Made by a program: the position numbers and the translations under genes. Of a DNA stretch of 64,000 nt, positions 33,973 through 44,801 are shown in pieces (position 1 is the first letter of the stretch; each line of letters begins with the position of its first letter). The notes beneath the pieces were generated by a model. The model did no database searches. It saw only the letters and a list, made by a program, of their open reading frames with translations, and was not told the origin of the DNA. The stretch is taken from contig CP012157.1 of assembly GCA_001602455.1 (NCBI GenBank), positions 1,173,733 through 1,237,732 on the forward strand, given 5' to 3'. This stretch comes from Betaproteobacteria bacterium UKL13-2 (GTDB taxonomy: Bacteria > Pseudomonadota > Gammaproteobacteria > Burkholderiales > Usitatibacteraceae).

Positions 33973-34221
33973 GGGGAACTTCTCGAAACCGTCGCGAGCG
34001 GGTGAAGCTCGTGCCGAGGGGTTTGGCAAACACGGGACACATACCCCGTGTACGGCGAGCACCGCAGGCGCGCAATTCGCCCTGGGGGGAATTTCTAAAA
34101 ACCGTCGCGAGCGGGTGAAGTTGGCAGTGACGGGGTGGGCAAACGCGGGACACGTACCCAGTGTACGGCGAGTACCGGAACTGACGGATTCACCCGCGCA
34201 GTAGGCTTTTAGAAGTTCCCT
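33973..34221. repeat. tandem, partly palindromic dispersed repeats (family C)
   Basis: Two related units of about 113 and 137 bases lie in tandem, beginning at 33973 and 34085. Each opens with GGGGGAAyTTCT..AAACCGTCGCGAGCGGGTGAAG and contains GGGACACrTACCC.GTGTACGGCGAG. The second unit ends in TTCACCCGCGCAGTAGGCTTTTAGAAGTTCCC (in pieces: TTCACCCGCGCAG at 34189, TTTTAGAAGTTCCC at 34207). This is an inverted copy of its own head, giving ~30-bp terminal inverted repeats. The head also matches 16998-17031. No real protein is encoded, and I found no transposase. Confidence 0.65.
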
Positions 34222-34241
34222 GGGGAGGAAACTCTATTAGT

Positions 34242-34285
34242 GGCGGGTATTTTCAAGCAAAAACGCCTGAAAACGCCCGTCGTTG
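34242..34285. repeat. hairpin repeat family B copy, left of the CRISPR locus
   Basis: GGCGGGTATTTTCAAGC, AAAAA and CGCCTGAAAACGCCCGTC form a hairpin. It is ~90% identical to the copy at 40008 on the other side of the CRISPR-Cas locus and in the same orientation. Confidence 0.75.
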
Positions 34286-34740
34286 CTGGTGTTTGCCAAC
34301 GTTCTTTGGTTTGCTGAAGTCATCGTGTAGAGGGTCGTGCTTCTACGTGTCCCACCATGTGAGGAAGTTCGCGCGAATATCTAGCGTCAGCGGAGACGGA
34401 GGGTTGAAAAAATTGTCGCGGCTGGCGCGAAGTATTTCCCTCTTTAAAGAACGGGGAAGTGTCCTACGTCAAACGGCGCGAGCCGTGCGAGGCACCTCCG
34501 CGATTCGCCTTTTCCAAAGACGGAAGTCCACCAAGGCGATCAAGCGATGACGAGAATGATGCGTTCATAAGTAACGGACACAATCAGGCCAAAACCAGAC
34601 CGCAAACACCCACGCTGTCATTCCGACCGGAGCGTAGCTGAGCGGAGGACTCCGCTTTCCGCAGCGTAGATGTTTTTGCTGAACGGGGGAGCGCGAAGCG
34701 CCAACTTATTCGGCAGGGGCGTTCGCCCCTAGCCGACTAA
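34286..34740. other. gene-free stretch upstream of the CRISPR array (putative leader side)
   Basis: No convincing gene is seen. Short frames here have no recognisable domains. A diverged family A repeat begins with GTCATTCCGA at 34617. A small palindrome AGGGGCG/CGCCCCT lies at about 34715-34730, and the array starts at 34741. Because crRNAs are read on the plus strand, the last 100-150 bases would be the leader if the array has one. I cannot identify a promoter with confidence. Confidence 0.45.
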
Positions 34741-35136
34741 GTTGTAGCTCCCTCTCTCACCCCGGAAGGCTACAATTGGCGTTGTAGACACCACAACATT
34801 TTTTAAGTTGTAGCTCCCTCTCTCACCCCGGAAGGCTACAATTGCGAGCTGCTCGAGCGGCTGATCAAAATTGTTGTAGCTCCCTCTCTCACCCCGGAAG
34901 GCTACAATTTGTGGGCGTGTAGCTCGTCTATTGACGCGGTTGTAGCTCCCTCTCTCACCCCGGAAGGCTACAATCTTACGCAGGCTGTACGCGGCTGCGG
35001 ACGGGTTGTAGCTCCCTCTCTCACCCCGGAAGGCTACAATATTTTTATGGTCAACTGGTCTGACCTATCGTTGTTTCTCAGGGCTCTCGACCTATCGTCG
35101 GTTGTAGCTCCCTCTCTCACCCCGGAAGGCTACAAT
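34741..35136 (+). CRISPR. type II-C CRISPR array, six identical 36-bp repeats
   Basis: Repeats lie at 34741, 34807, 34873, 34939, 35005 and 35101, each 36 bases and identical. They begin GTTGTAGCTCCCTCTCTC and end CCGGAAGGCTACAAT. Four spacers are exactly 30 bases and the fifth gap (35041-35100) is 60 bases. The repeat strongly resembles the Neisseria meningitidis II-C repeat (GTTGTAGCTCCCTTTCTC...GCTACAAT). Pairing with the tracrRNA at 39812 shows that crRNAs are read on the plus strand, opposite to the cas genes. Every repeat ends in TACAAT, a possible -10 box. A terminator hairpin follows at 35148. All repeats are perfect, so no degenerate trailer repeat marks the old end. Confidence 0.98.
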
Positions 35137-35147
35137 AGAGTCACTGG

Positions 35148-35185
35148 AAACCCGCATGGTTTAACGACCTTGCGGGTTTTCTTTC
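35148..35185 (+). terminator. rho-independent terminator at the end of the CRISPR array
   Basis: AAACCCGCA (35148-35156) pairs with TGCGGGTTT (35171-35179) around a 14-base loop and is followed by TTCTTTC. It lies 11 bases after the last repeat and would end plus-strand crRNA transcripts before they run antisense into cas2. Confidence 0.75.
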
Positions 35186-35200
35186 GCCCAAATTCCGCGC

Positions 35201-35533
35201 TCAGAACAGCAAGACTTGCTGGGCGCTGACCTTTTTTTCTTGAAAGAGTGGCAGGCCAACCAGTAATTTCATCGATGCGAACTGTTTTTCAGTGACAGTC
35301 AGGACGCGAACGGAGCCTGCGGGCGGCAGATTTTGAATCAAGCGCTGCATATGCTTTTGCTCAGCATCGGCACCGTTCAGAATTCGTCCATAAACCGAAA
35401 ATTGCAGCATGTCGTAACCATCATTCAAGAGGAATCGACGAAAGACGGTGTAGGCGCGCCGATCCTCTTTCTTTACTACTGGTAAATCGAAGAAGACCAT
35501 GAGCCGCATAAAGCGCCGCGTCTCTTTGCTCAC
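35201..35533 (-). CDS. cas2: CRISPR-associated endonuclease Cas2
   Basis: The 110-residue protein has the Cas2 ferredoxin-like fold. The first strand MRLMVFFDLPVV carries the conserved aspartate. FRRFLLNDGYDMLQFSVYGRI and SVRVLTVTEKQFASM follow, as in type II Cas2. With Cas1 it forms the spacer integrase. Its start codon shares a base with the cas1 stop, so the two are coupled. The array terminator lies 16 bases beyond its stop. The first Met at 35533 is used. Residue M9 (MRLMVFFDLP) is an alternative start closer to the usual N-terminus. Confidence 0.97.
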   Translation of the reverse strand: MSKETRRFMRLMVFFDLPVVKKEDRRAYTVFRRFLLNDGYDMLQFSVYGRILNGADAEQKHMQRLIQNLPPAGSVRVLTVTEKQFASMKLLVGLPLFQEKKVSAQQVLLF

Positions 35534-36441
35534 TACATTTCGCGTTGATGTTGCCGAAGACCAATCAGCTTCGGCAACTCAAGCGCCTCTTCGTCTGCGC
35601 CTTCATGCAGCCGCACCAGCGATTCAATGGTGTGCTCAATTGCGGATAAGGCGGCCATCACGCCGCGTACCATACCAACATCTACATTCAGTAGCGCCAC
35701 TAAGTCGGCTTTGTCTTTCGGCTGTAACTCTGCCGTCTCTTCAGCGGGGCGGTTAGATGAAACATAAAGGTCAACAATTGGGCGGAAAGGCTCAATCACA
35801 TCATCGGCAAGGTTGAAGGCGTTTTGCTCGCTGCGATGGAATAGCCCGATGCTTGGCAGGAAGCCGTGTGCGACCAGCCCGCGTGCAATGGTGCCGCGCA
35901 AGATGGCATAGCCGTAGTCCAAGGCCGCGTTTGTCCAACCGGGCTGCGAACGATCAAAGCTCGCGCCGAAGAGCGCACGGAAATAGACAGCGCTTGCTTG
36001 CGCTTCCATGTTCTCGGTATCGCCGGAGCGCACGCGCCGAACAAAGGACTCTAATCGATCAACTTCTTGTTTTGATCGAAGCTTTAAACACCGCGCTTGG
36101 TTCCCAATCTTAGCTTTGATGATTTCTGCCCACGCACGCTTTGCCAACGGCTTATCGATGGCCATTTGCAATCGCATCATTCGAGTGGCGCGGCTGTGCG
36201 AGAGGTAGGGGATAAACACACCATTTGGTTGATGGTTATCACCGGTTGAGAACAACCCGATGCCGTACTCCGCACAGGCCGATAGCACCGGATGGGTAAT
36301 GGTTATTTCGCGGTGATGCAACACAATCACGGCAATGTCCTCAAACGGAACCCGTGCAGACTGGTTCTGCTCAACGACGAGCGCGAAATGCTCGCGCTTG
36401 AGTTTGGCGGGCTGGTTGACGACGACGCTACGCCAGACCAC
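35533..36441 (-). CDS. cas1: CRISPR-associated endonuclease Cas1 (type II-C)
   Basis: Cas1 is the integrase that inserts new spacers. The conserved N-terminus VVWRSVVVNQPAKLKREH, the catalytic region with NMEAQASAVYFRALFG (glutamate), LVAHGFLPSIGLFHRSEQNAFNLADDVIEPFRP (histidine, glutamates) and overall length fit type II Cas1. I chose the GTG at 36441 (302 residues) because GGAG lies seven bases upstream and the family N-terminus begins there. ATGs at 36465 and 36489 would add 8-16 residues inside the end of cas9. The gene overlaps the cas9 stop by 14 bases and touches cas2. Confidence 0.97.
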   Translation of the reverse strand: MVWRSVVVNQPAKLKREHFALVVEQNQSARVPFEDIAVIVLHHREITITHPVLSACAEYGIGLFSTGDNHQPNGVFIPYLSHSRATRMMRLQMAIDKPLAKRAWAEIIKAKIGNQARCLKLRSKQEVDRLESFVRRVRSGDTENMEAQASAVYFRALFGASFDRSQPGWTNAALDYGYAILRGTIARGLVAHGFLPSIGLFHRSEQNAFNLADDVIEPFRPIVDLYVSSNRPAEETAELQPKDKADLVALLNVDVGMVRGVMAALSAIEHTIESLVRLHEGADEEALELPKLIGLRQHQREM

Positions 36442-39400
36442 GCCGTTGCTCCAATGGGGCGGCATAGGTGGTTCCCAAAACATCAACATTGTATTTCTGG
36501 ACTGCTAGAGCAGTTTTGATGCCGATACCTTCTATTTGCCCACCTTTACCTACGGACGATGCACGGTCATGAGCCCAAAGGCTGAACGCGCCGGTTCCGC
36601 GGTGACAACTTGCGTAGTAACCGCGTACCGGTGCTTTGCCTTTCTGGGTGATGGTCACCAGATCGTTTGGATACAGCGAAAAAAGGAACTCAAATGAGTC
36701 ATCGATTGCTGTCCATTCGTCCTCATCCTTAGACGCGACGATCGCACGGTTTGGAAGACCCGTGACTTTATGGTGGACATATACGGGTACAAGATGAAAC
36801 TTGCCAGCTTTAGTGAATACGTCCACTCGCAACATCGTGTCGTTCTTCGCGATACCCCCACGAACCGGTACGCCAGACAATTTGTCGATTTCTAAGGTAA
36901 CTGTACGAACGATGGGGCCCGTAGGATTTCCTTCCTTATCCGGCTTGTGAAGCGGATTACTCGCAGCAAACGCCTTGTCTGCCTTGCCGCCAAATTCCTC
37001 CAGGCGTTTACGAATAGCCGCATATAGTTTTTCGTTCCGATGCGGATCAATTAGGCGATCCAAATCCTTCATCGTCAACGCAGTGAGCGCGACTTTTTCA
37101 GTCACACCACCTTGGGCTTTAAGGCGTTCGGGCTGTCCGTAGATGGTTTCCTTATGTGCCGCGCCGCTGTTACGTCGTTGCGGTGCGCGCGAAACAAACA
37201 GCGGTCTGACCGCGTGTACATCTTCCTCGGCGTAATTGCCAAGCCGCAACAAATCTGAACGCAACTGCGCAGGGTCGTCAATCTTTAACCGCATCTGGAC
37301 TTCATCACGAAAGTGGGGCCACGGATCGGGGAAGTGTTCATGCAACTGCTGGAACATGGCGGCGTTGATGATCTCGCCGGTCTCGACATCGACAAAGCCT
37401 TCTGCAACCTGATCGAGTTCTTTGCGTCTTGCATAGTCCGACATTCGTTTGACCATGCCGTGCGTACAGGCGGCAACCACCACGGCGTCAAGTGCATGGT
37501 GGCGATCACTTTCATCGCGTACCTTAATCAAACCCCAGCGCGCTCGTAGGAATGCGGTCAGTTGCCCAGACAAGACAACGCAGCGTTTACTTTCGCTACC
37601 TTCAGCCAGTTTGAGGAACTGTTCGACTTGATTCTTGAAGAAGCGGCAAACATAGCGGGTGTCATTCAGATTGCGCTCGCGAAATTCGTCGGCCTGCTCT
37701 TTACCAAAGTCTTTCCTTAGCAGCCTACTGCGTTTGGCTTGCCGGTACAGTTTGTTTGATTCAACGAAGCCGACGAATTGCCGCCACCGTTCGCTGTTGT
37801 GTTCGCCATCCAGATATTCATAGGGCGTGCGGTTGCCCTTGTTGCGATTTTCCGCAGCGAGAACAAGGACCTTGTTGCTTTTACTGTCGTCAAAGCTACG
37901 AGAGTAGGGCAGCGCATGGTCGATTTCGACGTAACCGGGCTCAAGCAATCGGTTAAGGTCGATTCCTTGTATGGAGTAGGCACACTTGCCTTGTTGCTCT
38001 CGGTACAGCTTCCATTTCTCAAACTCACCACCCTTGGCTGCGCCGACGATGCCAAACTCCGCGACAAAGGTTTGTTTGTCCTTTTCGTTTCGCTCGCGAT
38101 AGGCCTCTTGTTCCTTGCCTACTTTCATTCGTTCATCGAACGGTTTTGAAAGTTCGCGCGCCATCTCGATATGAACCGAACTCGGCGAGCCATAGCGGGC
38201 GATGAGAGCATTCAATACCTTTCGTGCTTGATTTAAGGAGCGAAGCACAACCGGATTACGAGGGATGTCGCCAAGCTCGTCGTTGAAAACCATACGGCCG
38301 TCTTTGTCGCGGGATTTATAAAGTGGTGGAAGATATTTTCGGTTACCTTCACCAACCTTATGCAGTTGGCTGTGGTGGTACTCCGCCCTTTCACATGCCT
38401 CGTCATAACGTAAGCCGCGCTCCATATACGGAACGATTTTGCGTAACGCTTTAAGCGAAAGCGCGTGAAATTTATCAAAGCGAATGTCCAACAAGGCGTT
38501 TTCCGTTTTAGCACCGCCTGGAAGCCCTAACTTCTGAAGCTCGTTCAAAACCTCATCATCATCTTTGAATACACTTAGCACACCAGCAATTTCGTCCAGC
38601 GTTTCAGGCTGCCCTTCTAGCGCCGCGCACGATATTTGCTGCCATTCTGATTCGAGGTCGGCTTTTTTTAGCGTTGCACGAAGCTCTTGCCACGCCGCCA
38701 ACTTGGTTAGCGCCGCAGATTCAGGATCCTTCGCTTTGCCCTCGGCTTTCTGAAATTCGCTGGGATAGGCGAGGCTCGCAAATTTGAAGCTATCAGGCAT
38801 GAGCCCAGCTTTTACGAGCGCAGCACGAAGTTGTTTGTACGTAAAGTCTCCTACTTGCTCGTAGGGAAGACTCAGCGCCATCGTGCGCTCTGCGTCAGCC
38901 AGTGGACGTGTCCGACCATCGACGATGATGCGTAGGTTGTTTAACCTTGTTAGCCAGACATGGCGTTCAGCGGTAAAGCTCGCTTTTGGTGCGCGGTACT
39001 CTTGTTTCTCAAAGGTACATTTGCCCAGCATTTTGAGAAGGTCATTACCAGAAAGCGCTGGCTTCTGTTCCCAAAATAGTCCACTCTTGTGATCGCCACT
39101 ACCGCGAATCTTAGCTTCTAGGTTTGTATCCGCATGTGGATTGCCGTACTCGCGTTGCCGCTCAAATAGTTGCTTCAGTTCATTGTCAAGCAACTCACGC
39201 GATAGCGCTTTTGTATACTCGCCGCGTTTGTTGCGCTGTGCACTAGGAAATTCTGCCAGTACCATTTCCGCTGCGGTCCGATAGCTCTTGTCGTTCATGA
39301 GCTTTGTTGTGCTGGCCAAGCCCTGTTTGACTTTTCCGCCTTCTCCCTTCGTGTCCCCATCTGCTTTTCGCGCTTCGGCTCGGCTCACCCAATGGAATCC

Positions 39401-39787
39401 GCGGTGTTTACAAAGGTGATAAAGCACACGCGCCCATTCTTCTGGGCTAAGCGCTCGGTCCAAGCCATCTTTGCGGAGTTGCCACGGAGAGGCGTGCGAA
39501 GCAGAAGGCTGAATGAAAGTTTTTGTGTCTGCGATCAGTCCTTCGTGCTTCAACAATCGCGCCAACTTAATCAACCGCCAAGCGCGACGGCGCAAGCGAC
39601 GGCGCATGAGGCGCGCAGACCGTCGCGCGAGGTTCAGCGACTCGCCTTCTTTCGCCGTTTCTGCTTTATCGAAGCAACGAACCCCAAGGTCAACAATACG
39701 GGTCGGCGACAGCACCGCCCAACCCACTGAGGCAATACCAATATCGAAGCCAAATGTCAGTGGGCCCAAATTCTTCTTGTCATTCAT
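36428..39787 (-). CDS. cas9: type II-C CRISPR-associated endonuclease Cas9
   Basis: The 1119-residue Cas9 is close in size to the Neisseria-type enzymes. RuvC-I has D15 in FGFDIGIASVGWAVL. An arginine-rich bridge helix spans about residues 55-77 (RRSARLMRRRLRRRAW). The recognition lobe runs to ~500. RuvC-II has E541 in VHIEMARE. The HNH domain has H624 in VEIDHALPYSRSFDDS, with N in LAAENRNKGN. RuvC-III has D767 in SDRHHALDAVVV. The C-terminal ~330 residues should hold the PAM-interacting region. All catalytic residues are present, so it should cut both strands. The ATG at 39787 has AAGGAA upstream. The open frame to 39991 runs through the tracrRNA gene and is rejected. PAM cannot be read from sequence. 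Confidence 0.98.
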   Translation of the reverse strand: MNDKKNLGPLTFGFDIGIASVGWAVLSPTRIVDLGVRCFDKAETAKEGESLNLARRSARLMRRRLRRRAWRLIKLARLLKHEGLIADTKTFIQPSASHASPWQLRKDGLDRALSPEEWARVLYHLCKHRGFHWVSRAEARKADGDTKGEGGKVKQGLASTTKLMNDKSYRTAAEMVLAEFPSAQRNKRGEYTKALSRELLDNELKQLFERQREYGNPHADTNLEAKIRGSGDHKSGLFWEQKPALSGNDLLKMLGKCTFEKQEYRAPKASFTAERHVWLTRLNNLRIIVDGRTRPLADAERTMALSLPYEQVGDFTYKQLRAALVKAGLMPDSFKFASLAYPSEFQKAEGKAKDPESAALTKLAAWQELRATLKKADLESEWQQISCAALEGQPETLDEIAGVLSVFKDDDEVLNELQKLGLPGGAKTENALLDIRFDKFHALSLKALRKIVPYMERGLRYDEACERAEYHHSQLHKVGEGNRKYLPPLYKSRDKDGRMVFNDELGDIPRNPVVLRSLNQARKVLNALIARYGSPSSVHIEMARELSKPFDERMKVGKEQEAYRERNEKDKQTFVAEFGIVGAAKGGEFEKWKLYREQQGKCAYSIQGIDLNRLLEPGYVEIDHALPYSRSFDDSKSNKVLVLAAENRNKGNRTPYEYLDGEHNSERWRQFVGFVESNKLYRQAKRSRLLRKDFGKEQADEFRERNLNDTRYVCRFFKNQVEQFLKLAEGSESKRCVVLSGQLTAFLRARWGLIKVRDESDRHHALDAVVVAACTHGMVKRMSDYARRKELDQVAEGFVDVETGEIINAAMFQQLHEHFPDPWPHFRDEVQMRLKIDDPAQLRSDLLRLGNYAEEDVHAVRPLFVSRAPQRRNSGAAHKETIYGQPERLKAQGGVTEKVALTALTMKDLDRLIDPHRNEKLYAAIRKRLEEFGGKADKAFAASNPLHKPDKEGNPTGPIVRTVTLEIDKLSGVPVRGGIAKNDTMLRVDVFTKAGKFHLVPVYVHHKVTGLPNRAIVASKDEDEWTAIDDSFEFLFSLYPNDLVTITQKGKAPVRGYYASCHRGTGAFSLWAHDRASSVGKGGQIEGIGIKTALAVQKYNVDVLGTTYAAPLEQRRGLA

Positions 39788-39805
39788 GCGTAAATTCCTT
39801 AATAT
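39777..39805 (+). promoter_or_regulatory. predicted tracrRNA promoter
   Basis: TTGTCA (39777-39782), a 17-base spacer and TAATAT (39800-39805) form a good sigma-70-type promoter on the plus strand. The predicted start is at about 39812, the first bases of the anti-repeat. The promoter overlaps the start codon and ribosome binding site of cas9 on the other strand. Confidence 0.7.
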
Positions 39806-39811
39806 GAAGTC

Positions 39812-39907
39812 TTGTAGTCTTCCGGGGTGAGAGCCGTTGCTACAATAATGAATCAATCTAACGATTGAATCAGTACCCGCCCGACAGGCTTGCCTGTCGG
39901 GCTTTTC
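39812..39907 (+). ncRNA. tracrRNA of the type II-C system
   Basis: The anti-repeat (39811-39846) is a degenerate reverse complement of the CRISPR repeat. CTTCCGGGGTGAGAG (from 39819) pairs perfectly over 15 bases with the repeat. After a bulge (CCGTT against TCCCT), GCTACAAT pairs with GTTGTAGC. The bulge and GTTGCTACAAT wording match the Neisseria meningitidis tracrRNA. Downstream come a short hairpin (TCAATC-TAAC-GATTGA) and a terminator stem. The gene is ~95 nt, divergent from cas9, and transcribed on the same strand as the crRNAs. Confidence 0.92.
39879..39907 (+). terminator. terminator hairpin of the tracrRNA
   Basis: GCCCGACAGGC and GCCTGTCGGGC form a perfect 11-bp stem with a TT tip, followed by TTTTC. 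It both ends the transcript and provides the 3' stem of the tracrRNA. Confidence 0.9.
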
Positions 39908-40007
39908 ATTTGTTGCGGTCGTTGCGTGTGGATTGGCTCGGTCGGCAGACGTTATGTTCGCTAGGATACTATTGTCACTTAACGTCCGCAAGGCGTTAGC
40001 GCCAAGT

Positions 40008-40050
40008 GGCGGGCAGTTTCAAGCAAAAACGCTTGAAAACGCCCGTCCTT
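40008..40050. repeat. hairpin repeat family B copy, right of the CRISPR locus
   Basis: GGCGGGCAGTTTCAAGC, AAAAA and CGCTTGAAAACGCCCGTC form a strong hairpin. It is in direct orientation relative to the copy at 34242. It lies 11 bases beyond the phnE stop and could serve as a 3' end structure of the leftward phn operon, though no T-run follows on that strand. Confidence 0.75.
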
Positions 40051-40060
40051 ATTGGGGTTT

Positions 40061-40861
40061 CTAGATAATGCGCCGCCGAATCGCGCTCACCGCAATCTCA
40101 GCGATGATGACCACAACAAAGATGGTCGAGAGTACGACCGCGACTTGATCCCAGCGGAACAGGTTCATCGCGGTGTCCATCGCCATGCCAATACCACCCG
40201 CGCCGACTAGCCCAAGTACGGCGGATTCGCGCACGTTGATGTCCCAGCGGAACAGCGCAATGGAAACAAACGATGGCATGACTTGCGGCCAGTAGCCTTT
40301 CAGGAAGACAGACGTCGGCGGCGCGCCCGTGGCGGTGAGCGCATCAATCGGCCCGCGATTCGCCTCTTCCAATGCCTCGCCCAACAATTTACCAACAAAG
40401 CCAATGGAGCGGAATGCGATCGCCATTGTTCCCGCCATCGCACCCGGGCCAAAAATGGCGATGAATAGCAACGCCCAAACTAGGGTATTGACCGAGCGGC
40501 TCGATACTAGGATGAGCTGCGCGAGCATGTTGAGTGGCTTGATGGGCACCACGTTGCGCGCTGCCATGATGCCGACCGGAATCGACATCGTGAGGGACAG
40601 CAGCGTGCCGAGTGTGGCGATGTTGAGTGTTTCGATCAGGGCTGCGTGTACGGATTTTTGATAGTAAGCCGTATCCATCGGCCACATACGTTGGAAAAAA
40701 TCAGCAAGCTGTTCTGGTGCGTCGTAAAGAAACTCGGGGATGACCTCAATGTTCTTTATCGAAAAAACGATCGCGGCGACCGAAATAAAGTAGAACGCAA
40801 ATCGCAAGAATCGCTGTTCGGGGGTGAAGCGCTCCCACCGTCGAATCGCGTGTGTGCTCAC
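40061..40861 (-). CDS. phnE: phosphonate/phosphite-type ABC transporter permease (second PhnE)
   Basis: This 266-residue inner-membrane permease has about five to six helices. It contains the EAA-like cytoplasmic loop EALEEANRGPIDALTATGAPPTSVFLKGYWPQVMPSF, which contacts the PhnC ATPase. GLVGAGGIGMAMDTAMNLF is the PhnE signature near the C-terminus. It starts with an ATGA overlap on the other phnE gene, so the two probably form a heterodimeric channel. It is the last gene of the leftward five-gene operon. Confidence 0.92.
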   Translation of the reverse strand: MSTHAIRRWERFTPEQRFLRFAFYFISVAAIVFSIKNIEVIPEFLYDAPEQLADFFQRMWPMDTAYYQKSVHAALIETLNIATLGTLLSLTMSIPVGIMAARNVVPIKPLNMLAQLILVSSRSVNTLVWALLFIAIFGPGAMAGTMAIAFRSIGFVGKLLGEALEEANRGPIDALTATGAPPTSVFLKGYWPQVMPSFVSIALFRWDINVRESAVLGLVGAGGIGMAMDTAMNLFRWDQVAVVLSTIFVVVIIAEIAVSAIRRRII

Positions 40862-41739
40862 GATGCCCCCAACCCGGCAGATTTTTCTTGCGACAGTTTT
40901 GTTGCTCTGCGGTTACGCAGGTAATCGAGTAACGCTAAGTTATCGTTGAAGAGCGCTCTGACGTAGTTTGAGAAAACCTCCGCCATGATGATCAGCGCGA
41001 TGATCGACAGCAGAATCGCGCAGACAAAGTCATAGTCAAAGCGCTGGAACGCGGAGAACAGGCTGCCGCCGATGCCGCCCGCACCAACAATACCAATCAT
41101 GGTTGAATGGCGCAGGTTGGAATCGAACTGATACGAGGCAAAACCTAAAAAGCGCGAGAACACCTGCGGAATGACGCCATAGATCAGCACACCAAAAAAC
41201 CCCGCACCGGAGGCACGGACAGCCTCAACTTGTTTCGGTGAAATTTCCTCAATGGCTTCGGCGAAGAGTTTGGAAATGAACCCGATGGAGCCCACCACCA
41301 GCGCGCCGATACCGGCGATGGCGCCAAATCCAACGGCCTTCACAAAAATGATGGCGATCACCACTTCATGAAACGAGCGACACACCGCGATCAGCGCACG
41401 CGCCGGCCAGACGATCCATGCGGGCATGAGATTGCGTGCGGCGAGAAGTCCGATCGGTAGCGACAAGCCGATACCGATGACGGTGGCGATCACCGCAATT
41501 TGGATACTTTCGAGCAAGCCTTTGGTGATCATCTCCACCTTTTCGGCGCTGAAGTTCGGCGGAAACATACGCCCCAAAAACTTTTGTCCGGCGCTGAGTC
41601 CATCAACAAAACGTGCCCACGTCACATCGAGCTGACCCATCGCCCACACGACATAGAATGCCAGCAGGATGAAGCCGATACGCAGCGGCCAGTTTGGAAT
41701 GAAGGCGACGCGAGTTTTGTGTGTGGCCGGAATGCTCAC
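40858..41739 (-). CDS. phnE: phosphonate/phosphite-type ABC transporter permease (first PhnE)
   Basis: The 293-residue permease is homologous to the next gene. Its ATPase-contact loop is [35 protein letters not shown], and the conserved [21 protein letters not shown] follows. The N-terminal region predicts a cytoplasmic start and first helix ([16 protein letters not shown]). It overlaps phnC by four bases upstream and its paralogue by four downstream, so all are translated from one message. Confidence 0.92.
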
Positions 41740-42503
41740 TCTAACCAGTCCTCACCACCGTAGATTTCTTTGAGGTGGTCATCGGTGAGTTCCGCTGGAC
41801 TTCCATTGAACACGACCTTACCGCCGGTCATGCCGATCATTCGCTGGCAGAAACGTTTGGCCAGCGCCACGTTGTGGATGTTGACGATGATCGGAATATT
41901 GCGCGTTCCTGCCATCTCCGCCATGATTTCCATGATCTCCACCGATGTCTTCGGATCGAGGGATGAGGTGGGCTCGTCTGCCAGCAAAATTTCGGGGCGC
42001 TGCATAATGGCACGCGCGATACCAACCCGCTGACGCTGACCACCAGACAAGCCATCCGCACGCTGATTGACGAAATTGCCCAGACCTACCGCATCGAGTA
42101 ACGCAAAGGCTTCGTCGATATCGTCTTGCGGGAATTTTCGCAGCCATGCTCTGAATGCGGAAACATAACCAAGCCGTCCCGTCAGCACGTTCTCCATCAC
42201 AGTCAAGCGTTCGACCAAGTTGTATTCTTGAAACACCATGCCGATACGGCGGCGCGCTTCGCGCAGTGGCACGCCGGACAGTTTGGCGAGATCCTGACCT
42301 TGGAAGAGTATCTGGCCGGCGGTGGGGTCGATGAGGCGATTGATACAACGAATCAGGGTTGACTTGCCAGTGCCTGAGGGGCCGATGATTGCAGTAATGC
42401 CATCGCCGGGAATATCGAGGTCAATCCCCTTTAAGACAGGCACGCCTTTTTTGTACTCTTTGGTCAGTCCACGGATTTGGATACTTCGGTCGAGTGGATT
42501 CAT
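41736..42503 (-). CDS. phnC: phosphonate/phosphite-type ABC transporter ATP-binding protein
   Basis: The 255-residue ATPase has Walker [18 protein letters not shown], the PhnC-typical [20 protein letters not shown], the signature [15 protein letters not shown], Walker [13 protein letters not shown] and an H-loop histidine in VNIHNVALA. It powers import by the two adjacent PhnE permeases. It overlaps both the phnD gene upstream and phnE downstream by four bases. Confidence 0.96.
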
Positions 42504-43567
42504 TTCTTTGCGCCGGCTGCAGATTCAGCAGCGCGTTTTGCCAGCGCTTCGCGCGTAAATACTTCGCCGCTTGCTTTGGCGACTGCGCGAACCGCATCAT
42601 AGTCTTCTTTATAGTCCAGCGGCCAGTGGCGATCGGCCGTGCCGCGGAAGGCAGCCGTCAGCTCAGGCGTGAAGCGGTAGTTGATGGTGCAATCGGCAAT
42701 TTTCTTCTTGAGTTCAGGTAGTAAATCGTGCACCACCACGGCGCTACCCGGCGGGAATGGTTTTGAGCGAAAGATCACGCGCAGGTCATCTGCCTTCACC
42801 ATTCCACGGTCAATCATACGAAACCAAACGTCGTCCGCTACCGCGGCGGCGTCATAGTCGCCACTCATTACCCCGGCCACCGAGTTATCGTGTTTGCCGG
42901 AATACAGGACTTTGTAATCCTTGTCTGGTGTGAGCCCTTGTGCGGGGAACAGAGCGCGTGGGGCCAAGTTGCCGGAGTTGGAGGTGGGCGTCACATGAGC
43001 AATACGTTTGTCTTTTAGGTCTTTCGGCGCCTGAAACGGACTATCCTTTTTTACGAGCAACACGAGCCGATAGACGGCCGGACCTTTGGCGTCGCCACGA
43101 ATCGCAAACGGCTGGGCACCAGCGATATTTACCGCAAACGGGGTGTCGCCGGCAGACAATTGTGAAACATGAATGCGTCCACTGCGCAATGCTTCGATGG
43201 TGGCTGCCGCCGAGTGGACTTTAAAGAAACGTGTGGGCTTGCCGGTGCAGCTAGTCATGTGGTCAATGTAGGGTTGCCACAGTTTTTCGTAGAGGGCGGT
43301 GTCCTCGGTCGGCGTATAGCCGTACAACAACATTGACGGATTGCGTAACTTTTTCGGATCTGTCGGTGTATCCGCCAACATGTCGCCGTCGTTGTCACAG
43401 TAGATCGTATCGAGTTCACCACGATTTTTGCAGGTCTGTGCACTCGCGGTTGGTGCGGAAAGCAGCAGGGAAAATGCGATGATAAGCGCGACCGAGAGCG
43501 CGGAGGCTGCGGCTGGTGTTAACCTCGTGTGAGATGTTGATCGGCAAACAAGATTCGTATTGCGCAC
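42500..43567 (-). CDS. phnD: phosphonate/phosphite-type periplasmic substrate-binding protein
   Basis: The 355-residue protein has a signal peptide ([17 protein letters not shown]) and a PhnD-family body: [61 protein letters not shown] and [14 protein letters not shown]. The serine/threonine helix start (TSNSG) binds the phosphorus oxyanion in this family. It begins with GTG and overlaps phnC. A clear paralogue lies directly upstream. Substrate (phosphonate, phosphite, methylphosphonate or phosphate) cannot be decided, since no C-P lyase, ptxD or phnX gene is present. Confidence 0.92.
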
Positions 43568-43641
43568 GGCGGTCCTTCGTTAGCGGTAAATGTTGAAAGC
43601 GGGAGACGGCCCTTGTGGGGCCGAGCGCATGTAGTAGCGGA

Positions 43642-44697
43642 TTATTTCTTTGTTTTCGCCGCTTCGGCTTCCTTCGCCGTCTGCTTCTCATATGCGCTGC
43701 GATTGAACACTTCACCCGAGCCCGCCGCGACCCGTCTTACGACCTCCCAGTCTTTCTGGAAGTTCACCGGAAAAAATCGGTCCGCGCCGTCGAAGGCTTT
43801 GACCATCTCTGGCGTGAACCGGTAGTCGTAAAAACACTTGACCAGCTTCGTGGCGAGAGCCGGATCGAGGTCGTGTGCGTAAGCAAAACTCGACGTTGGA
43901 AATTTGTTCGATTTGTAGATGATGCGGAAGTCGTCTTCCTTGATTTGTCCGCGTGAAGCCATACGGTGATAGACGTCCGATGCCACAGCGGCAGCGTCGT
44001 AGTCGCCGGAGTTCACGCCCATGATGCTTTGATCGTGTTTGCCGGAAAACAATATCTTGTAATCCTTGTCTGGCGTTAGCCCTTCTGCAGGAAACAGCGC
44101 TAACGGTGCCATGTGGCCTGAGTTGGACGATGGCGACGTATGAGCCACCTTTTTGCCCCTTAAGTCAGAAAGTTTCAAAAACGGAGAGGCTTTTTTGACG
44201 ACCACCAACAAGTTGTAGCCTTGATAGTCCTTCTCCGTGCCCTTGACGGCAAACGGGACGGCGCCAGCGATGTTCACGGCAAAGGCCGTGGGCCCGGTGG
44301 AGAAACCGCCGACGTGGAGACGACCGGAGCGCATCGCTTCAATTTCCGCTGCGTTTGAATTGACCTGGTAGAAAACCACCCGCTTATCCAAACACTTGCT
44401 CAAATCCTGCGTGAAGGGCTGGAAGATTTTTTCATACACAGCCGGGTCTTCGACCGGCGTGTAGGTGAACACGATGGTGTTGGGATTCTTCAGTTTCTTA
44501 CTGTCCTTGGGCGTATCTGCAACAAGATCTTTGTTTTCGTCGCAGTACATTGCGTCGAGGTCGCCGCGGTGCTTGCACTCCTGTGCCGCCGCGGAGCGCA
44601 CGAACGCGCCGACCGTTAGGGCAGCCAAGATCGCGATTACTGAAACGAAGCACTGGCGGGCTTGTCCGACCTGAGGGTACTGAAAATTTGCATTCAT
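43642..44697 (-). CDS. phnD: second phosphonate/phosphite-type substrate-binding protein
   Basis: The 351-residue paralogue of the next gene has a signal peptide (VIAILAALTVGAFVRSAAA). It then has YQVNSNAAEIEAMRSGRLHV, HTSPSSNSGHMAPLALFPAEG and [17 protein letters not shown]. Both copies carry an unusual N-terminal stretch with the pattern CK.RG.LD..YCD...D..ADTP. AGGGGAA precedes the ATG at 44697, so the longer frame to 44787 is not used. It is separated from the other phnD by 74 bases and is first in the operon. It likely widens the substrate range of the same permease. Confidence 0.9.
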   Translation of the reverse strand: MNANFQYPQVGQARQCFVSVIAILAALTVGAFVRSAAAQECKHRGDLDAMYCDENKDLVADTPKDSKKLKNPNTIVFTYTPVEDPAVYEKIFQPFTQDLSKCLDKRVVFYQVNSNAAEIEAMRSGRLHVGGFSTGPTAFAVNIAGAVPFAVKGTEKDYQGYNLLVVVKKASPFLKLSDLRGKKVAHTSPSSNSGHMAPLALFPAEGLTPDKDYKILFSGKHDQSIMGVNSGDYDAAAVASDVYHRMASRGQIKEDDFRIIYKSNKFPTSSFAYAHDLDPALATKLVKCFYDYRFTPEMVKAFDGADRFFPVNFQKDWEVVRRVAAGSGEVFNRSAYEKQTAKEAEAAKTKK

Positions 44698-44801
44698 GGC
44701 ATTCCCCTTTTGTTGTTTGATCTGAGCGAAAATTCGACCCTCGTAGTTTAACAACCTCGCTCCAGAAGAATCCGGGCGAGGCATCATTATTGAGCCGATA
44801 C

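Follow-up and report, generated by a model that had tools for sequence, protein, structure and literature searches.

Compact Cas9 enzymes of the subtype II-C CRISPR-Cas systems (clustered regularly interspaced short palindromic repeats and their associated genes) have been compared in PMC9433092. In the sections of that paper drawn on here, 29 II-C orthologues chosen at 59.6-70.4% identity to Nme1Cas9, for which structure 6jdv is named, were tested, and orthologues of the histidine (His) class prefer a purine at position 5 of the protospacer adjacent motif (PAM). The same sections rate the PAM of the N4C enzymes as the most relaxed of any compact Cas9. Here we describe a II-C locus from Betaproteobacteria bacterium UKL13-2, contained in a window of 64,000 nucleotides (nt), that is the whole stretch of DNA analysed, which ends at position 1,237,732 of a genome made up of a single contig of 3,387,087 bases. 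We are confident that the locus is an intact subtype II-C immune system, probably working, with one group of HK97-type tailed phages as its main target.

An earlier sequence-only reading had claimed a complete II-C system with array, cas2, cas1, cas9 and a gene for trans-activating CRISPR RNA (tracrRNA), and all of these parts were found where it had placed them:

34702-34744, plus strand: hairpin 5' of the first repeat, extending 4 nt into that repeat
34741-35136, plus strand: CRISPR array of six identical 36-nt repeats, four 30-nt spacers (s1 to s4) and one 60-nt interval
35041-35100, plus strand: the 60-nt interval, with s5a at 35041-35070 and s5b at 35071-35100 and no repeat between them
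35201-35533, minus strand: cas2, GTG start, 110 amino acids (aa), TIGR01573 and PF09827
35533-36489, minus strand: cas1 of type II, up to 318 aa, TIGR03639 at 278 bits (cut-off 120)
36428-39787, minus strand: cas9, 1119 aa, TIGR01865 at 758 bits (cut-off 100)
39777-39805, plus strand: promoter-like site of the tracrRNA gene, TTGTCA-17-TAATAT, which agrees with the consensus at 9 of 12 positions and is no more than such a match
39810-39905, plus strand: tracrRNA with anti-repeat, middle hairpin and terminator, the exact ends inferred
39879-39902, plus strand: terminator stem-loop of the tracrRNA, 10 pairs

The repeats start at 34741, 34807, 34873, 34939, 35005 and 35101, which leaves intervals of 30, 30, 30, 30 and 60 nt. 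Rfam assigns CRISPR-DR34 to all six (36.7 bits each, gathering score 35), and a genome-wide search allowing up to three mismatches found the six window copies and none besides, with no match in the backwards control. The earlier account of six identical repeats stands; the 60-nt interval had gone unmentioned in it. The cas2, cas1 and cas9 reading frames are open and overlapping, as had been claimed, and the curated cut-offs of TIGR01573 (Cas2), TIGR03639 (type II Cas1) and TIGR01865 (Cas9) are all exceeded, along with those of the Cas9 domains HNH_4 and RuvC_III; the true start of cas1 may sit further in, since the TIGR03639 model begins at residue 19. In an alignment of seven Cas9 proteins, the window's included, the RuvC and HNH residues D15, E541, H624, H764 and D767 are invariant, so that the four catalytic residues named earlier are joined by H764. 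The gene content of cas9, cas1 and cas2 only is that of subtype II-C; no further open reading frame (ORF) of a size fitting csn2 (II-A) or cas4 (II-B) was seen on the cas strand between the array and cas2 or beside cas9 in the ORF list, which was inspected by eye with no profile run. Chance repeats or a CRISPR-like artefact were also considered, and are ruled out by the Rfam assignment, the genome-wide repeat search, the alignment of Cas9 to 6jdv, the cas profiles and the phage matches of the spacers.

The tracrRNA gene is complementary to the repeat. Its proposed promoter, anti-repeat and terminator held up when computed: the scan gave one sigma-70-like site against 0.2 expected in shuffled sequences, and the repeat and the tracrRNA with its terminator cofold at -84.0 kcal/mol. 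Upstream of cas9 the anti-repeat is found on the plus strand, the tracrRNA being divergent from cas9, and hence the CRISPR RNA (crRNA) is predicted to be read on the plus strand, against the cas operon. The predicted direction, which is based on the anti-repeat pairing and on a G common to the 3' side of the protospacers, gives the layout typical of II-C, an array opposed to the cas operon with an extra repeat at its 5' end. The anti-repeat pattern was found in 87 of 88 relative loci, where three of the 87 are CRISPR repeats, leaving 84 tracrRNAs. For the alignment six of the 87 were dropped (three not tracrRNA, three duplicates or near-duplicates), giving 82 sequences with the window's. Both 3' hairpins show two-sided pair changes in this alignment, with A-U 28, G-C 22 and C-G 6 at one pair and A-U 37 and G-C 27 at another (counts uncorrected for relatedness).

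The targets of the spacers were sought in IMG/VR, scanned with seeds of 16-17 nt taken from five 3' ends (s2, s3, s4, s5a and s5b) and two 5' ends (s2 and s5b), and the six spacer units were compared with 152 viral loci (1,359,387 bases) at up to eight mismatches; the s1 matches came from contigs fetched by the seeds of other spacers. The four regular spacers and their matches are:

34777-34806, plus strand: s1, no mismatches in L167 and L171, phage tape-measure gene, 3' flanks TCCGG and CCCGG
34843-34872, plus strand: s2, a diverged match, five mismatches in L128 and eight in L122 and L125 in like context
34909-34938, plus strand: s3, no mismatches in seven viral contigs, terminase gene, G at +5 in each
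34975-35004, plus strand: s4, one mismatch in L124 and L167 and two in L136, virion-structural gene, G at +5

In addition s5a matches L171 perfectly and L167 with one mismatch, with G at +5, and s4 has a second site in L124 at five mismatches. Further matches of s2, s3 and s4 at six to eight mismatches lie in unrelated contigs, which in most cases those seeds themselves had retrieved. Reversed spacers gave three matches only, at six to eight mismatches, and in a second control the spacers of relatives, compared with the 152 viral loci, gave 0 of 900 at up to four mismatches, one at five and six at seven. At least four spacer units are thus of phage origin, and therefore acquisition has worked at some time. 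The spacer search proposed in the sequence-only reading succeeded in IMG/VR, while GenBank phages and PLSDB plasmids gave no credible protospacer for the window array, the scoring plasmid matches being other II-C repeats or weak.

The good matches fall on ten contigs, nine of which are interlinked by 92.8-99.9% identity over common stretches, with L136 more distant (84% over 344 bases). These contigs carry terminase, portal, head protease, capsid, tape-measure and tail genes, and since virion and packaging genes are present they are phages and not host arrays. The spacer matches show a single group of HK97-type tailed phages to be the main target. L124 is matched by 26 records of GenBank phages, in no case across most of the query. 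The array of L058, the sole His-class relative searched against phages, matched four Rhizobium-phage records at one 30-nt place (E 0.06). Pfam named no anti-CRISPR gene on 10 phage ORFs, in a scan that was not exhaustive. A search for a prophage of the target group in 27 other genomes of the bacterial family returned one short match only (G020, 75% over 145 bases). Within the own genome the target phage matches two CRISPR arrays, the one described above and a second one described below, and pieces of the virion-structural gene. The array stretch gave no match at E <= 0.001 to the rest of the own genome, and s1 and s2 at E <= 10 gave matches of at most 16 nt, apart from the repeats and the anti-repeat.

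The chromosomal pieces of the virion-structural (LamG-like) gene, at G000:C1:2306197-2307433 and 2511615-2511890, are 72-89% identical to that of the target phage and are perhaps old prophage remnants.

The second array came to light through the search of the bacterial family with phage contig L124, and belongs to a type I-E system:

G000:C1:1250324-1263735 (L300), 13-26 kb beyond the window end: type I-E gene set and array

The genes begin at 1,250,324, about 13 kb past the window end, and the array runs from 1,259,988 (about 22 kb) to about 1,263,735. All six ORFs scanned match their profiles (Cas3, Cse1, Cas7, Cas5e, Cas6e and Cas1e), while Cse2 and Cas2 were assigned by the fitting place and size of their ORFs. 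The array holds 62 repeats of 29 nt (60 plus two with a one-base deletion) and 61 spacers, 58 of which were taken into the comparison and three left out. Half of these, 29 of the 58 (27 distinct sequences), match the II-C target phage contigs at up to five mismatches, reversed spacers giving none, and the 58 spacers gave no match to the other loci among the 152. For 24 of the 29 matching spacers AAG, AAA, AGG or ATG stands directly 5' of the site in at least one contig. As the contigs had been fetched with II-C seeds, the I-E matches speak independently for an encounter between this phage group and the host, and the target is common to both systems. PMC8482600 deals with co-occurring CRISPR systems at a general level, as far as the sections used here go.

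The working of the locus can thus be proposed as follows. Cas1-Cas2 would insert pieces of phage DNA of roughly 30 nt beside the last repeat, as the II-C literature has it, and the guide would be made of a spacer followed by the 5' portion of the next repeat, read from the plus strand and base-paired to the divergent tracrRNA, a pairing that was computed. Cas9 would cut phage DNA where position 5 of the 3' flank is G, an N4G-type PAM, as four protospacers and a conserved His suggest, and the type I-E system would attack the same phage group. The hairpin before the first repeat would stop a crRNA without a spacer from serving as guide. The fold of 34690-34752 has -34.5 kcal/mol (z -5.0) and covers the guide part of such an extraneous crRNA, and the matching place in genus-mates G009, G006 and G004 also folds as a hairpin, with different letters in G006 and G004. 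Since the sections used of PMC12080349 propose hairpins as one II-C way of silencing extraneous crRNA, such a device is already known, and by analogy the present hairpin could be one.

Position 5 of the PAM was named before the first spacer scan, from the His residue of the window Cas9 and the published rule. H1062 is the equivalent of H1024 in Nme1Cas9 and T1065 of T1027, so that His and Thr are shared, while A1067 and A1018 put alanine in the places of N1029 and Q981. The sequence-only reading had expected a PAM of the system's own, which is right in part only. Among 89 aligned Cas9 proteins, duplicates included, the reader of position 5 is D in 37, H in 20, N in 18, Y in 6, G in 3 and E in 1, with a gap in 4. 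The 3' flanks of the clean protospacers, one representative each, are CCCGGCGA (s1), CCGTGTAC (s3), CGCGGAAA (s4) and ATGGGTCA (s5a). Position 5 is G in four of four and the only invariant position among the first 12, which agrees with the His at the H1024 position and hence suggests a PAM of the N4G type, with the weak statistics of n = 4.

That the common G at +5 arose by chance, or that the PAM is longer than or other than N4G, is to us a serious though lesser prospect. With four sites only, the chance of all G at +5 is 0.006, of all purine 0.06 and of any invariant position among 12 as high as 0.19, and up to four or more positions are read by close relatives of Nme1Cas9 in the sections used of PMC9433092. 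The diverged s2 site, with C or A at +5, does not fit the rule of the His class, whereas H1062 and the four clean protospacers do; that the His singled out position 5 beforehand, and that no second flank position is common to all, both favour N4G. The set could not be widened with relatives, because their spacers match none of the 152 viral loci at up to four mismatches. Another doubt concerns the 60-nt interval, which is probably two spacers whose intervening repeat was lost or never copied. The phage match of s5a stops at nt 30, the usual length, beyond which contigs L171 and L167 resemble each other and differ from s5b, and in the 71 arrays of 90 relative loci looked at, 963 of the 966 intervals measure 28-32 nt, the others being 0, 41 and 46, none near 60. 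These results make it unlikely that the interval is a single long spacer from a phage variant with all 60 nt contiguous, a reading which would account for s5b having no match in the contigs searched. The nine letters GACCTATCG occur in both halves, 27 nt apart; this is unexplained by two spacers, and fits neither a fusion nor a single long spacer. On the preferred two-spacer reading s5a has no 3' repeat and no guide would be expected from it. According to the sections used of PMC12080349, II-C arrays grow at the end that holds the 60-nt interval.

Several points weigh against an intact, working system, besides the few PAM sites and the diverged s2 match. A sigma-70-like promoter, such as II-C systems have within each repeat, was not found in the array stretch 34640-35260 at the threshold used, the array is small with one abnormal interval, s5b is without a match in the 152 loci (the best being a seed-driven one with eight mismatches), the repeat has GGCTACAAT at its end instead of the TGCTACAAT of the Neisseria-type L029 repeat, and the locus is shrunken in two genus-mates. 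Among 100 genomes, the own included, a first look found nine with a Cas9 match at E <= 1e-50; of the 12 genus-mates two have such a match and four a 25-nt repeat stretch. G006 (L031 6010-6045, G006:C219) has one lone repeat adjoining cas2-cas1-cas9; G009 (L191 1446-1558, G009:C8) has the upstream hairpin, one repeat and 9 nt, followed by the right flank (window 39961), and lacks cas genes; in G012 a repeat-free gap of 88 nt separates the two flanking genes. The simplest reading is that the locus was gained and lost within the genus, though the genus-mates are draft genomes. One could imagine a silent or decaying locus with intact genes, where the much larger I-E array, with 62 repeats against six, has taken over immunity to this phage group, while the II-C array, short and with an abnormal interval, is being lost. 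We consider this improbable, as the six repeats are identical, the cas frames open and the catalytic residues kept, and s1, s3 and s5a match phage contigs perfectly, while the genus-mates are weak evidence, since an array may be collapsed in a draft assembly.

On its flanks the CRISPR locus has short dispersed repeats, at window positions 34239-34294, 40005-40060 and 34593-34658, and all recur in the genome; the first two, one on each side of the locus, are 88% alike. Such repeats might have made it easier for the locus to be inserted or deleted. To the left, two related intergenic stretches (33973-34082 and 34087-34220, about 110 and 134 bases) have more than 20 copies in the own genome, at up to 95% identity, and occur also in genus-mates such as G007 and G009. 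To the right, 40061-44787 holds ORFs resembling a phosphonate-type ABC transporter (two permeases, an ATPase and two binding proteins), their translations judged by eye.

By sequence comparison the locus joins a large, already known II-C family, and the II-C system itself is ordinary. A scan of genome contigs matched at least 590 stretches, at least 345 of which encode relatives; the best 80 of the 345 have Cas9 proteins 47-73% identical to the window's (best segment) and, going by record titles, come mostly from betaproteobacteria. The window's gene order and array side recur in L035 (Candidatus Desulfobacillus denitrificans, AP021857), L044 (Dechloromonas denitrificans) and L042 (metagenome-assembled genome JAJTHU01), whose Cas9 proteins are 70-73% identical. 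The consensus 36-nt repeat of L035 is identical to the window repeat, and the position-5 reader is His in L042 as in the window and Asn in L035 and L044. A scan of IMG/VR for mobile copies gave 141 stretches with the peptide pattern, none encoding a relative of the window Cas9. In PLSDB 61 plasmid records match Cas9, 10 of them having a single place that spans 80% or more of the query, and these are at most 42.1% identical among the matches listed; the closest by identity is an Acidovorax temperans plasmid (65.2% over 39% of the query).

In this host two CRISPR types clearly converge on the same phage group, which links metagenomic phage contigs otherwise lacking a host to a betaproteobacterium. 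The I-E system shares its targets with the window array and differs by an unrelated effector, a 29-nt repeat and a PAM on the 5' side. We put forward only tentatively, and with doubt, that the 1119-aa Cas9 has the one-base PAM N4G and that the host has trained two unrelated systems with complementary PAMs on one phage group. If so, a phage escaping one system (5' AAG-like PAM) would not escape the other (3' N4G), and the Cas9 would be the G-reading counterpart of the N4C enzymes. In any case a PAM prediction is on offer that has already been checked against natural targets, and since the position-5 reader is His, Asp or Asn in relatives at 60-70% identity, the choice of base could be studied in similar proteins.

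Compared with the Neisseria meningitidis system, to which the sequence-only reading had likened repeat and tracrRNA, the likeness is partial. The window repeat and the L029 repeat, which is of Neisseria type, differ at few positions, the tracrRNA is likewise divergent and the anti-repeat motif is the same, whereas the middle hairpin and terminator are other ones and the repeat ends in TACAAT without the preceding TG of L029. A search against characterised II-C orthologues, also proposed earlier, gave a full-length alignment to Nme1Cas9 (817 bits over window Cas9 residues 11-1107), which has about 1082 aa against 1119 here. By the identity range given in the sections used, the orthologues of PMC9433092 are closer to Nme1Cas9 than the window Cas9 is; what the window Cas9 has in common with them is its place in the His class, through H1062.

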